DNA of 64,000 nt. Source: Marivirga salinae. GTDB lineage: Bacteria > Bacteroidota > Bacteroidia > Cytophagales > Cyclobacteriaceae. This document shows, one piece after another, positions 16,531 to 47,800 of this stretch. Positions within the stretch are counted from its first letter, which is position 1; each line of letters starts with the position of its first letter. The translations under genes were made by a program, and so were the position numbers. The stretch covers positions 3,658,001-3,722,000 of the forward strand of contig NZ_CP129971.1 of assembly GCF_030503855.1 (NCBI RefSeq), given 5' to 3'. Under the pieces are notes generated by a model, which was not told where the DNA came from, ran no database searches, and saw nothing but the letters and a program-made list of their open reading frames with translations.

Positions 16531-16558
16531 CGTCATTCCTGCCTTCGCAGGAATGACG
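16531..16558. repeat. Dispersed REP-like palindrome, solo copy
   Basis: A perfect stem of 12 pairs (CGTCATTCCTGC with its complement) around a CTTC loop. The same palindrome forms the ends of the repeated units at 45.4-46.7 kb. This copy stands alone, 14 bases from the end of the amidase gene on the other strand. Confidence 0.8.
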
Positions 16559-43314: not shown

Positions 43315-45233
43315 GGTCAAGCTGGCTGAAAATATTTTTTATTATTGGATTCTTTTTTCAATCAATGCTTTTTTATGGGCAAATAACTGAAAGCCCTATT
43401 GGTCATCTTTATAAAAAGAATTCTAACATACAAATGAGGCTGTCTGTAAGTCAAGACACCATCAGTATGCCAATTTGGGATGACTTTACATATAATAGTC
43501 AAGAACCCGATTCAAACATTTGGCTTCATGGGGAACATGTGTTTGTCAATAATGGATTTGCCTACCTCCCTCCTTCCTTTAATGTGGCTACCTTAGATGG
43601 TTTTGATGGCAATGGTATAGCCTATAACACAGAAGAAAATGCAAATGGGATTGGAGATAGTTTGGTATCCAAACCAATAGATTTATCTGCCTATGATGAA
43701 AATTCCAATATTAATCTTAGTTTTTTTTGGCAAGAAGGATTTGGAGGAAATGCTCCTGATGCTCAGGATTCACTAAAATTAAGCTTCAGGAATGCGGAAG
43801 GAGAATGGATACTGGTTCATGGTTTTGGCGGTAGCGGAAACATAGAAAGAACTTTATTTTCCCAGCACTTTGAAAGAGTAAATGATAGTAGCTTCTTGCA
43901 TGCAGGTTTTCAATTTAAATTTGAATCAGCAGGTAGTTTAGCTGGCGATTTTGATACTTGGAATTTGGATTACATTTATCTGAATGCTGGAAATACGCCA
44001 GTTAATACGCAAGGTAATGCCTATGATTCCTATGAGGATCGAACTTTTTCTGAAAAGCCTAAAAGCCCTTTTGCTGATTATTATGCTCTACCCTTAAAGC
44101 ATTTGAATGAAAGTTGGTTAGAAGAAAATATCGATACCGCAACATTCATTTACAATAATCTATGGGCTGGCAATGCCAATAATTTCTCCTTTGGTACTGA
44201 ATTTTTCAGCACAGTATATGATACTCTAAAACCCAACCAAATCATTGATTCATTAGAAGTAGATGGAGTGTTCTTAACTGATTTACAGGATACTGCTCAA
44301 TTTATCTATCACCCAGAAAACAAAAGTCAATTTATAAACCACTTATTATCGGAAAAAGAAAATGAAGATTCCGTTTATCTGAATTTTCAATTCAATTTAG
44401 GTACTAATGATAGTTTATTCTTTGAAACCATTGATGGTGTTGCGGTCTATTATCCTGAACTGAGCTTTCGTCAAAATGACACGGTATCGACCATCATTCC
44501 ATTACATGATTATTATGCATTTGATGACGGTTCTGCAGAATCCAGAGTGCAGTTAAATTCAAGAAACTATCAATTAGCCCAATCATTTGATGTAATTGGC
44601 GAACAATTTTTAACTGGTATTGAAATTTACGCTCCTAATATTGGCCAAAACGCCTCAACTCAAAACATAACACTATTAGTTTGGAATAATTTAACTTCTA
44701 ATACAGATGATATATTAAGAGCACAAAATGTGCTGATAAATCAAAGTGTGTCATTAAACCAATTTCAACGATTTACTTTTGATAGACCAATATTGCTAAG
44801 TGGTGAATTTTTTATAGGCTACAGAGAAGAAAATGATGCCCCACTTTCAATAGGTTTTGATAAAAACACCAATAGCGCAACAAGATTATTTTACAATCAA
44901 GGTGGTGATTGGGAACCTAATATTACGCTTGAAGGGAGTGTGATGATACGACCAGTATTTGATACAAAAGAAATACAGGTTTCCAATGACAAAAGGATCA
45001 ACCCAAAACTTGATATTAAAGCCTATCCTAATCCAAGCAGAGGAGTTTTAAAATTCACAAAGCAAGTAGATCAAATTGAAATATATGATCTACAAGGCAG
45101 CTTAAAAGTAAGTGAAACAAATATTGAAAGCAGTCAATCGATTGACATTTCCCATCTACCAAATAATTTGTATCTGATTAAATTAAGAAAGGGGAATCAA
45201 TATTCCACTTTGAAGGTAATGTTGAGGAAATAA
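43311..45233 (+). CDS. Secreted T9SS type A protein coupled to the PASTA gene
   Basis: A 640-residue protein with a signal peptide (SSWLKIFFIIGFFFQSMLFY, ending GQ). A jelly-roll or MAM-like first half (LHGEHVFVNNGFAYLPPSFN, WNLDYIYLNAGNTPVN) and a second beta-rich region (AQSFDVIGEQFLTGIEIYAP) follow. The C-terminal T9SS type A domain runs from IKAYPNPSRGVLKF to LKVMLRK. Its ATG overlaps the PASTA stop by four bases (ATGA), so it is translated with the Ddl-PASTA pair. Why a secreted T9SS protein is coupled to wall enzymes is unknown. No enzyme motif was seen. Confidence 0.85.
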   Translation: MRSSWLKIFFIIGFFFQSMLFYGQITESPIGHLYKKNSNIQMRLSVSQDTISMPIWDDFTYNSQEPDSNIWLHGEHVFVNNGFAYLPPSFNVATLDGFDGNGIAYNTEENANGIGDSLVSKPIDLSAYDENSNINLSFFWQEGFGGNAPDAQDSLKLSFRNAEGEWILVHGFGGSGNIERTLFSQHFERVNDSSFLHAGFQFKFESAGSLAGDFDTWNLDYIYLNAGNTPVNTQGNAYDSYEDRTFSEKPKSPFADYYALPLKHLNESWLEENIDTATFIYNNLWAGNANNFSFGTEFFSTVYDTLKPNQIIDSLEVDGVFLTDLQDTAQFIYHPENKSQFINHLLSEKENEDSVYLNFQFNLGTNDSLFFETIDGVAVYYPELSFRQNDTVSTIIPLHDYYAFDDGSAESRVQLNSRNYQLAQSFDVIGEQFLTGIEIYAPNIGQNASTQNITLLVWNNLTSNTDDILRAQNVLINQSVSLNQFQRFTFDRPILLSGEFFIGYREENDAPLSIGFDKNTNSATRLFYNQGGDWEPNITLEGSVMIRPVFDTKEIQVSNDKRINPKLDIKAYPNPSRGVLKFTKQVDQIEIYDLQGSLKVSETNIESSQSIDISHLPNNLYLIKLRKGNQYSTLKVMLRK

Positions 45234-45456
45234 TTTCTCAGATTAATCCTTAAAAGCAATCTCCCATAATTTTAAAAAGTTAAATTATTACTGCTCAAAA
45301 GTATCTCAATACCAAATGGTAACATTCTGTCAATAGATCATTGAAATACAGTAATAATTACTTCTCACTAAATTCAGGGCGTCATTCCTTAATTAAACCA
45401 TTATAGTCCTAGATTACATCAGATGAAATTAATAAATCTGAAATATATTTTCCGTG

Positions 45457-45620
45457 CGTCATTCCTTTGAAGAAAGGAATCTAATGATTTTAACCTATGG
45501 TTAAAATATCCAGAAAGCTAGAGACAAATCTAATTACCAATCAATTCCTCTATGCCAGTTTTAAGTTAAGAGTATTGAAATTTCGTTTCAATAGGACTAG
45601 ATCCCTTTCTTCAAAGGGAT
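45457..45620. repeat. Four-palindrome repeat unit A
   Basis: Order: P1 (45457-45480, CGTCATTCCTTT with GAAAGGAAT), P2 (45487-45507, ATTTTAACC-TAT-GGTTAAAAT), P3 (45574-45592, ATTGAAA with GTTTCAAT), P4 (45601-45620, ATCCCTTT with AAAGGGAT). P1 and P4 are degenerate relative to the other units but keep paired arms, i.e. compensatory changes. Confidence 0.8.
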
Positions 45621-45738
45621 AGCCTGTCCCGCACTATAAGTCGAGAACGTTCTAATCTTGTTTTTTAGTTTAATGGAAACATTCCTATTCTAGATTAAAA
45701 TAAACGAAGTTAATAAATTTGAAATCGTGTTTTCTGTG

Positions 45739-45925
45739 CGTCATCCCTGCGAAGGCAGGGATCTGTTGATTTTAACCTATGGTTAAAATACTATGAAAAC
45801 AGGCTATCGAACTATCTAGTTGAGTAATCTACCATACACTTGGGTTAAGAGAATTGAAACTTTGTTTCAATAGGACTAGATCTCTGCTTCTCGACTAAAG
45901 AACCGGACAGGTTGCGTAGAGATGA
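45739..45925. repeat. Four-palindrome repeat unit B
   Basis: P1 at 45739-45762 (CGTCATCCCTGC-GAAG-GCAGGGAT), P2 at 45769-45789, P3 at 45853-45871 and an interrupted P4 whose arms ATCTCTGC and GTAGAGAT (45880-45887 and 45915-45922) are separated by about 27 bases. Confidence 0.8.
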
Positions 45926-46051
45926 TGGTTCTAGCCAAGATTGAAGTTAAATTATTAAATGATTCTCCAGTAAAATTCATTTCTAAAATATTTTGCTTTG
46001 AATTAAACTTCACATACTTTAGTTAATATTTCACCAAAAAAACTAACCCAA

Positions 46052-46354
46052 ATGACTGCAAAAGGAGGATATGTATATATCCAAAGTAATTTCTCTCGGT
46101 CCGTTTTATATGTAGGCTCTACTTCCAATTTATGTAATAGATCTTTCCAACATAAAAATGGAGAAGGTTCCGAATTCACTACTACTTATAAATGCACTGA
46201 TCTAATTTATTATGAATTTCACAAAACTATTGATAAAGCCATATTAAGAGAAAGAAGAATTAAAAAATGGAAACGAGAATGGAAAATTAACCTAATTAAA
46301 GAAATGAATCCTACTTTTAGGGATTTATATGATGAGGTTGCTGATATGAAATAA
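46052..46354 (+). CDS. Small stand-alone GIY-YIG nuclease
   Basis: A 100-residue protein that is a GIY-YIG domain and little else (UPF0213/YhbQ-like size). It has GYVYI (6-10) and LYVGS (19-23) as the two halves of the name motif, then Arg30, His34, Glu55 in YYEF, and the Lys/Arg/Glu-rich helix AILRERRIKKWKREW (63-77). The expected catalytic Tyr, Arg and Glu are present. There is no DNA-binding domain fused to it. It is embedded between palindromic repeat units (45457-45925 upstream, 46366-46673 downstream), so repeat processing or mobility is a possible job. No other gene shares its transcript. Confidence 0.9.
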   Translation: MTAKGGYVYIQSNFSRSVLYVGSTSNLCNRSFQHKNGEGSEFTTTYKCTDLIYYEFHKTIDKAILRERRIKKWKREWKINLIKEMNPTFRDLYDEVADMK

Positions 46355-46365
46355 TGATTAATATT

Positions 46366-46416
46366 ATTGAACCTTCGTTTCAATAGGACAAGATCCCTGC
46401 CTCCGCAGGGATGACG
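46366..46416. repeat. Half repeat unit (P3 plus P4)
   Basis: P3 (46366-46384, ATTGAACC-TTC-GTTTCAAT) and P4 (46393-46416, ATCCCTGC-CTCC-GCAGGGATGACG) start 12 bases after the nuclease stop codon. P1 and P2 are missing; the nuclease gene occupies the place where they would be. Confidence 0.8.
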
Positions 46417-46505
46417 TTCTAATCTAGTTTAATGCTTTAATTAAAATATTACTGTTCTAAATTAAAACAGATGAAGTAAATAAACTTGAAAAAGTGTTTT
46501 CCGGG

Positions 46506-46673
46506 CGTCATCCCTGCGAAGGCAGGGATCTAATGATTTTAACCTATGGTTAAAATATCAAGAAAGCTAGAAAATAATCTAATCAACTATTAATCCATCT
46601 ATGCCTTTGCTAGGATAAGAGTATTGAAACTTCGTTTCAATAAGACAAGATTCCTGCCTTCGCAGGAATGACG
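46506..46673. repeat. Four-palindrome repeat unit C
   Basis: The best-preserved unit: P1 46506-46529, P2 46536-46556, P3 46623-46641 (ATTGAAAC-TTC-GTTTCAAT), P4 46650-46673 (ATTCCTGC-CTTC-GCAGGAATGACG). P1 opens with CGTCAT and P4 closes with ATGACG, so the unit has terminal inverted repeats. Confidence 0.85.
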
Positions 46674-46707
46674 ATCTATTCTAGCTAAGTATTTAATTGA
46701 AATATTA

Positions 46708-47800
46708 TCAATCCACAGTTTCATCACTGCCCATTAAATAAGCTTTGATGTAATCATTCAAATCACCATCCAATACGTTTTGAACATCTGTTCTCTCTAC
46801 ACCCGTTCTGGCATCTTTAATTAATTTGTATGGATGCAATACATAATTTCTGATCTGAGATCCAAAGTCAATTTTCTTTTTACCTGCTTCTACTACATTT
46901 CTTTCAGCGCTTCTCTTTTCTACTTCAATTTGATATAGCTGGGATTTCAACATTTTCATGGCCTCTTCCCTATTCGCTAATTGCGTTCTGTTGGCTTGAC
47001 AAATCACCACTATTCCAGTTGGCTTGTGCGTTAACTGCACCTTAGTCTCCACTTTGTTTACGTTCTGACCACCTGCACCACCAGAACGAGATGTATGCAA
47101 TTCTACATCATTAGGGTGGATATCAATTTCTATGGTATCATCCACAACCGGATAAACATATACAGAAGCAAAAGAAGTATGTCTCCTTCCACCACTATCA
47201 AAAGGTGAAATGCGGACTAAGCGATGTACGCCATTTTCAGATTTCAGGAATCCATAAGCTTGGGCACCATCAAATTCCAAAGTAACAGACTTAACACCCG
47301 CAACATCGCCTTCTTGAAAATCTACTTCTCTTACTTTATAACCATTGGCTTCTCCCCACATGATGTACATTCTCATCAAGATTCCGGCCCAATCATTACT
47401 TTCAGTGCCGCCAGCTCCAGGAGTGATCTGTAACATAGCTGAAAGTTGGTCTTCTTCAGAAGAAAGCATCTTTTTCAACTCCAATTCTTCTGTTTTGGTA
47501 AGCGCTTTCTTATAGGCTTTATCTACTTCTTCTTCAGTAGATTCTCCCATTTCTAGAAATTCATAATAGGTCTCTACCTCACCATATAATTCACTCAGCT
47601 CTTCGAAATGTCTAGTCCAATCCTTCAAACCTTGAATGACTTTCATGGTTTTTTCAGCCTCATCCGAATCATTCCAGAAATCAGGTTGAGAAGATACTAA
47701 TTCCAGTTCTTTTATTTCTTCAACTTTCTTGTCGTAGTCAAAGATACCCCCGAAGTGCTTCCACTCGGGCCTTTAAGTCTTTTAAATCGTCACTAGTCAT
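46708..47800 (-). CDS. prfB: Peptide chain release factor 2, with programmed +1 frameshift
   Basis: The gene starts at 47800 (ATG ACT AGT) and reads 20 codons to an in-frame TGA at 47740-47738. The bases around it, GGGGGTATCTTTGAC, are the classical RF2 frameshift site: a Shine-Dalgarno-like G run, a CTT slippery codon and a TGA-C stop. Skipping one T puts the ribosome into the long frame ending at 46708, giving 363 residues, normal for RF2. The product recognises UGA and UAA; the GGQ loop is [16 protein letters not shown]2 thereby controls its own synthesis by reading its own UGA stop. Without the shift, the longest frame would seem to lack its first 51 residues. Confidence 0.96.

Follow-up and report, generated by a model that had tools for sequence, protein, structure and literature searches.

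What is a small stand-alone nuclease gene doing in the middle of an array of palindromes, and do the two belong together? The question is raised by a stretch of 64,000 nucleotides of the Marivirga salinae genome (the window; the genome is G000 below), in which an ORF for a 100 aa GIY-YIG protein (46052-46354, + strand) lies among repeat units built of four palindromes, P1 to P4. The original prediction described three full units and a half unit with the order P1-P2-P3-P4 around this ORF, and our reading of the sequence and its repeats bore this out with small corrections. In unit 1, P1 is a CGTC-tagged hairpin with a stem of 8 and a loop of 4 (45457-45482, +; sequence and hairpin scan), followed on the same strand by P2, the second hairpin ATTTTAACCTATGGTTAAAAT (45487-45507), and P3, the right half unit's second hairpin (45574-45592), both from the hairpin scan. 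The corresponding + strand positions are 45739-45764, 45769-45789 and 45853-45871 in unit 2 and 46506-46531, 46536-46556 and 46623-46641 in unit 3, where P1 was recognized from repeats as well as by the scan; all three P1 copies start with CGTCAT. A unit consists of two inverted half units (P1 with P2, P3 with P4), each made up of CGTCAT, a hairpin, ATCT and a second hairpin, with a core of 66-79 bases between them (16 cores), and all units seen in this array lie in intergenic DNA.

Of the inverted CGTCAT/ATGACG ends that had been claimed, the ATGACG end is intact only in P4 of unit 3 (46648-46673, -) and in P4 of the half unit, a CGTC-tagged hairpin in reverse orientation (46391-46416, -), both identified from repeats and hairpin scan, whereas P4 of units 1 and 2 is in each case interrupted by a short second palindrome. 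In unit 1 a short foreign palindrome, CCTGTCCCG..TCGAGA (45621-45646, no strand assigned), sits at the stem/box junction and separates the CGTC-type hairpin (45599-45620, -) from its box; in unit 2 the second palindrome (about 45890-45912) lies in the loop of P4 (45878-45927, -). The nuclease does lie within the array, but by eye the stretch from 45928 to the ORF start contains no P1-P2 that would belong to it. A decayed scrap of P1, comprising the CGTCAT box and half an arm, is found at 45380-45390 (+; repeat family D6 and sequence), and the half unit starts about 10 bases past the ORF stop with a P3-type hairpin (46364-46385, +; sequence and repeats). The predicted solo palindrome of the P1/P4 type is real and has the form CGTCATTCCTGC-CTTC-GCAGGAATGACG (16531-16557, no strand assigned; hairpin scan), its left arm being that of P1 and its loop and right arm those of P4. 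Counting GTCAT hairpins with a stem of at least 7, a loop of at most 12 and one mismatch allowed, we found 5 in 45201-46710 (mean 0.064, maximum 2 in 500 dinucleotide shuffles) and 9 in the whole window (mean 2.17, maximum 6 in 30 shuffles).

The repeat family is dispersed, as proposed: searching the genome (4.49 Mb, a single contig) with unit 3 gave 84 matches at E values up to 10; 52 of the 84 fall below E 0.001, partly overlapping, and 15 span at least 145 aligned bases. Among 32 distinct P1/P4 copies (38 hairpins from 24 loci) 98.0% of cells are paired, a figure that, like the constancy of the box, is partly built in by the rule of GTCAT plus at most one mismatch by which the rows were chosen. 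In hairpin 1, 36 cells were changed on both sides, giving a covariation score of 0.398 against 0.166 in shuffles, and since the changes come as paired changes the pairing of this hairpin is conserved.

In Di Nocera 2013 (PMC3733652), CGTC REPs are defined by a terminal box, CGTC (or TGTC/CCTC), a stem of 8-9 bp with AT in the first two positions, a loop of 4-5 bases and a short unpaired tail, mostly CCA; they are intergenic, dispersed mainly as inverted dimers and found in phyla including the Bacteroidetes, the Neisseria members being dRS3. The paper states that these repeats "lack a dedicated transposase", no RAYT or IS200 transposase gene having been found flanked by CGTC units; it reports no dedicated enzyme and holds 0 occurrences of GIY-YIG. 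In G000, CGTC is present in 32 of 32 aligned P1/P4 copies (GTC is set by the selection rule, the first C is not), a stem of 8 and loop of 4 in 38 of 38 hairpins (the A-T start being imposed by the rule), and the family forms dispersed inverted pairs. Our array shares with the published REPs the CGTC box, the 8-bp AT-starting stem, the 4-base loop, the opposite orientation and the intergenic location, and differs from them by having a further hairpin (P2 or P3) towards the inside of either half unit and CTx tails in place of CCA; G000 tails are mostly CTA or CTT, and CCA tails occur in relatives such as those at L076 and L293. The tail difference does not decide the matter, the published definition giving CCA for most tails only. 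Judged on their sequence, P1 and P4 match the published CGTC-tagged REPs.

The protein has a single Pfam domain, GIY-YIG (PF01541, E 8e-15). Residues G6, Y7, Y20, G22, R30, H34, E67 and N86, among others, are invariant in 46 homologues, and we take these columns to be the usual GIY-YIG active-site positions (compare I-TevI and UvrC). The predicted structure has a mean pLDDT of 91.2, and the best solved matches in a fold search with it were 1zg2 (UPF0213), 7cq3 and 6seh (Slx1-Slx4) and 1yd6 (UvrC), at E 0.0065 and weaker and with 18-24% identity in the first 14 alignments; profile searches also matched 1zg2 and 1ywl. The predicted fold is thus like that of the GIY-YIG domains of UPF0213, SLX1 and UvrC, from which this nuclease is distinguished by its REP context. 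PDB profile matches to Duffy-binding proteins (E 8e-4 to 0.02) were taken as spurious. PADLOC returned no match that would mark the nuclease as a defence gene, the only hit among named NCBI families was a sub-threshold match to a group I intron endonuclease, and the window protein had no match in 50,697 phage records. G000 encodes a second member of the subfamily (3948389-3948685, 72% identity), likewise within a REP array, and here the ORF replaces the core, lying between P1-P2 and P3-P4 with both sides present.

Homologous loci were selected by protein similarity alone, and among the best 80 of the 511 confirmed the association is pronounced. With a strict rule (GTC+AT, stem of at least 7, loop of at most 20, at most one mismatch; flanking windows of 300 bp) a hairpin was found in 113/149 flanks of these best 80 of 511 loci compared with 67/1765 distant windows, on any side of 68/80 loci and on both sides of 45/69. 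A wider rule (GTCA before a stem of 8, with a loop of up to 70 and one mismatch) raised this to 123/149 flanks versus 151/2043 distant windows, with 73/80 of the same best 80 of 511 having a hairpin on any side within 300 bp and 50/69 on both. Twelve loci were negative by the strict rule; in four of these (L065, L070, L071, L091) the sequence breaks off no more than about 250 bp from the ORF, leaving one side unscorable. In the nearest pair the boxes face outward in 33 of 50 cases, the other three arrangements accounting for 7, 6 and 4 (again for the best 80 of 511). GTCAT precedes 138 of 354 perfect hairpins near the ORF among the 64 possible NNNAT boxes; the next most frequent, TGGAT (44), is the GTCAT hairpins' side on the other strand. 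Within 250 bp of the ORF there are 4.08 hairpins per kb, whereas at a distance of 500-750 bp the density is down to 0.22. The hairpin-flanked loci come from about a dozen phyla by record titles, many of them MAGs. Two Sinorhizobium homologues (L287, L298) are flanked by CCTCAT-box inverted repeats, which the GTCA rules miss and which match the CCTC box variant mentioned in the excerpts of PMC3733652. Flanking hairpins are thus a specific and recurrent feature of this nuclease subfamily; their box is constant (GTC and a stem starting with A), the rest of the stem varies by genome, and the enrichment suggested as a check in the original prediction is both strong and specific, a sister group discussed below having 0/58 flanked sides by the strict rule.

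Within the window's own family (98 genomes, at least 75 with a match; 85 stronger-match loci and 24 weaker-group loci taken from part of the matches listed) the pairing is weaker than in the 80-locus set. Among the matches listed, the strict rule gave 52/185 sides and 33/95 ORFs for the stronger group against 5/239 control windows, counts in which two G036 ORFs appear twice because of overlapping stretches, and 0/58 sides and 0/30 ORFs for the weaker GIY-YIG group against 2/58. The wider rule gave, again among the matches listed, 63/179 sides versus 19/241 control and 41/92 ORFs for the stronger group, and 1/56 versus 5/59 for the weaker one. Many of the 24 family loci negative by the strict rule have longer-looped GTCA-type inverted repeats, as judged by eye.

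The presence of REPs and of the nuclease is also correlated between genomes. We surveyed 296 genomes of the window's phylum for one stem class by pattern (61 positive; the reversed control pattern gave 0 throughout) and for the nuclease at E 1e-12 (151 positive, with at most 16 candidates scored per genome, so that some may be missed). The nuclease is present in 55/61 REP-positive and 96/235 other genomes (p 1.2e-12, a statistic that ignores kinship), in 32/33 genomes with at least 5 copies and in 30/30 with at least 10. Copies of the counted stem class number 1181 in nuclease genomes versus 20 in nuclease-free ones, and in nine nuclease genomes, chosen because this stem class occurs in their flanks, the copy number ranges from 6 to 409. 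Of six exceptions two were searched: G182 has two GIY-YIG domains in long frames and G282 a stand-alone-sized one. The outcomes that the original prediction named as refuting it, an even scatter without enrichment near the nuclease or equal occurrence in genomes lacking it, are contradicted in this phylum; the picture is less clear in 115 Alphaproteobacteria (the class of Paramagnetospirillum), where 15/25 REP-positive and 20/90 other genomes carry it (p 5e-4, ignoring kinship), or 14/24 (p 1.1e-3) without the centre genome, which was chosen for carrying both. Among Alphaproteobacteria with at least 10 copies the nuclease is found in 8/11 (7/10 without the centre genome), one exception having 80 copies. 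Five of the ten REP-positive Alphaproteobacteria without the nuclease (G447 included) were searched, and each has one GIY-YIG domain in a frame of 630-720 aa (UvrC-like).

Our main reading, to which we would assign a probability of roughly 0.55, is that the palindromes are CGTC REPs in inverted pairs and that the ORF encodes a REP-associated nuclease which belongs inside such a pair and spreads in the manner of REP/RAYT. In REP/RAYT systems (REPINs, REPtrons) a small gene lies between inverted REPs, and the genome holds many ORF-less inverted pairs; both features recur here, with the difference that RAYT is a Y1/HUH transposase and its REPs have a GTAG box, in place of a GIY-YIG domain and a CGTC box. 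The nuclease would recognise the hairpin together with its GTCA box, probably when replication or DNA uptake exposes them as single strands, and would nick close to where box and stem meet; the break would then be repaired against another copy, which would spread the autonomous, ORF-bearing unit, ORF-less units would be moved in trans by the nuclease and repair, and solo palindromes would be left when two hairpins collapse into one. The system would then work like REP/RAYT with a GIY-YIG enzyme replacing the tyrosine transposase. Hairpin recognition is likely in view of the association, the constant box and the reported work on Ssn described below. That the nuclease drives the spread of the REPs is plausible, and it is the best candidate for what spreads the hairpins, as the pairing recurs in many distant bacteria. 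The idea that ORF-less units derive from the nuclease unit fared less well: 16 ORF-less cores were compared with the nuclease region and did not clearly resemble it (z averaging -0.01 and 0.25, the highest single value being 3.44). They do not look like deletion products of a unit with an ORF, and we rejected that origin.

The strain comparison suggested in the original prediction did reveal sites without the units in relatives, in Marivirga, Azospirillum and Sphingobium, with units, ORF-bearing ones among them, present in one genome and missing from another at corresponding sites. G105, the closest relative (81-86% identity in the flanking genes), lacks the window array and has in its place another palindrome pair, of the GGTCGGTGTGCCACCGACC type (L260); G098 has no unit there, and G103 keeps a decayed P1-like half, so REPs at this site may predate the G000 array. 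In 400 kb of G105 no unit was seen by eye at five G000 REP sites for which both flanks were found (L003, L011, L012/L023, L017, L018/L025), and at the site of the second nuclease copy there are two half units without the nuclease. Since global alignments of intergenic regions yielded meaningless blocks, we claim presence or absence only; no target duplication or exact insertion point was fixed at the compared sites. Homologues also occur in 34 plasmid records. On an Azospirillum lipoferum plasmid the nuclease and two REP pairs lie between sufB and sufC, where the four Azospirillum relatives examined have neither. In Sphingobium, 11 plasmid records cover both flanks of one site, 7 with and 4 without a homologue, and of the eight alleles examined four are filled, two have a solo palindrome and two have neither. 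The filled form of TomMM7A reads CGTCACCCCGGGCTTGACCCGGGGTCCCGC - ORF - exact inverse of CGTCACCCCGGGCTTGACCCGGGGTCCCGC; the solo of TomTYG64 corresponds exactly to the left arm from one TomMM7A end followed by the loop and right arm from the other, and the solo in the window is composed in the same way. These states fit two scenarios, in which either two hairpins collapsed into a single one or the ORF entered a palindrome. TomTYG73 (L305) has an allelic nuclease with a one-base deletion, its frame shifted and no gene annotated.

Entry of the ORF is what the main rival to nuclease-driven spread supposes, namely a selfish homing endonuclease that inserts itself into pre-existing CGTC palindromes, the REPs being spread by other means. 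The solo and filled Sphingobium alleles at one site, the half units of G105 at the second copy's site, the REP-rich genomes without a nuclease and the occurrence of other short palindromes within REP loops and junctions all suit this explanation. Against it, REPs of the counted stem class are nearly absent from nuclease-free genomes of the phylum (20 versus 1181 copies), and we regard it as unlikely, if worth serious attention.

The nuclease might instead be a resident enzyme that serves the cell and recognizes REPs as its sites, for example in the control of DNA uptake or recombination, with mobility incidental. The two G000 copies differ by a dN of 0.17 and a dS of 1.93 (near saturation), values that indicate purifying selection on the nuclease. 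A gonococcal homologue (NZ_CP119140.1), 58% identical to the Undibacterium protein and nested in the hairpin-flanked group of our tree, lies amid 16 dRS3-type CGTC hairpins in 3.3 kb. This homologue may be Ssn itself, of a Neisseria GIY-YIG family that reportedly, in a 2025 paper in Nat Commun, cuts repeated single-stranded NTS sites; that work is said to be framed around repeat recognition affecting transformation, not around a mobile element enclosing the gene or a CGTC-REP enzyme. Like Ssn, the window nuclease is a small GIY-YIG protein that stands alone and is associated with many-copy repeats; its motif residues are intact. The purifying selection, the gonococcal cluster and the Ssn work speak for a resident enzyme, but the patchy distribution between sister species and plasmids and the several nuclease copies often present per genome make this explanation improbable.

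Movement of the REPs by RAYT transposases, with the adjacent nuclease a bystander, was set aside as very improbable: G000 does encode RAYT-like genes, but by eye its three Y1 matches (L048, L049 and L050, the last containing an in-frame stop) are flanked by different, unrelated palindromes (e.g. GCACGCG..CGCGCTAG), no RAYT or IS200 gene was found flanked by CGTC units according to the excerpts of PMC3733652, and the nuclease link recurs across phyla. Chance neighbourhood with hairpins that are merely transcription terminators, to which the intergenic placement of the units would lend itself, is scarcely credible against the fall in density beside the ORF, the box and orientation preferences and the 0/58 of the sister group.

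That no description of such a pairing exists, as had been supposed, is doubtful in view of the reported Ssn/NTS work and the gonococcal homologue, and the pairing of GIY-YIG with repeats is probably not wholly new. The palindromes themselves were known before, since they fit the REPs on record since 2013 (PMC3733652). What does seem new is the proposal that the pair forms a mobile element and that the nuclease is the enzyme CGTC REPs were missing. A literature search at listing level found no paper pairing GIY-YIG with CGTC REPs; in the excerpts of PMC6006769 and PMC12306157 "CGTC" occurs in the reference lists only, and a gonococcal sequence in the excerpt of PMC7593972 contains an inverted pair of CGTC-type hairpins.

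The weaker group of the window's family forms a sister group with a different context. In a tree of 98 proteins drawn from 198 (proteins with stops or too short were left out), 26 of 30 weaker-group rows are separated from those flanked by hairpins (fork 99/97); the remaining 4, from loci lacking a tRNA gene, fall at the base of the hairpin group. A same-strand tRNA gene is present in 18 of the 24 weaker-group loci (L037, which is G000 2576020-2577003, L040, L046 and L216-L239), upstream of the ORF at 36-220 bases in 16 and downstream only in 2, and in 7 of those 16 the ORF is followed by 15-33 bases that repeat the 3' end of the tRNA. G000 has three tandem copies 384 bp apart, with a tRNA-Glu end after each. 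This group looks like an element targeting tRNA ends.

More tentatively, at somewhat short of even odds, GIY-YIG proteins of 90-100 aa enclosed by CGTC REPs could constitute a transposase-free kind of mobile DNA that cuts its own hairpins at GTC/A and is copied by repair; they would be the missing mobiliser of CGTC REPs in about a dozen phyla, and a sister group would have specialised on the ends of tRNA genes. A specific enzyme inside CGTC REP pairs in many phyla makes the origin of these REPs directly testable, and matched pairs of nuclease and hairpin with different stems offer material for work on specificity. Breakage and repair by a minimal nuclease, and not a transposase, might generate a repeat family and disperse it.

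Lastly, the second short palindrome, of the CCTGTCCCG..CGGGA type, was found nine times inside CGTC REPs, placed either within the loop or where box and stem meet: at 45621-45646 and about 45890-45912 in the window, at L004, L007, L008, L014 (two) and L017, and in G105 (L280, 12600). These loci were mostly picked for their REPs; 2 of 4 such palindromes are nested in the 64-kb window and one in 400 kb of G105. The nested palindromes sit as if the REP loop and the box/stem junction were break points.
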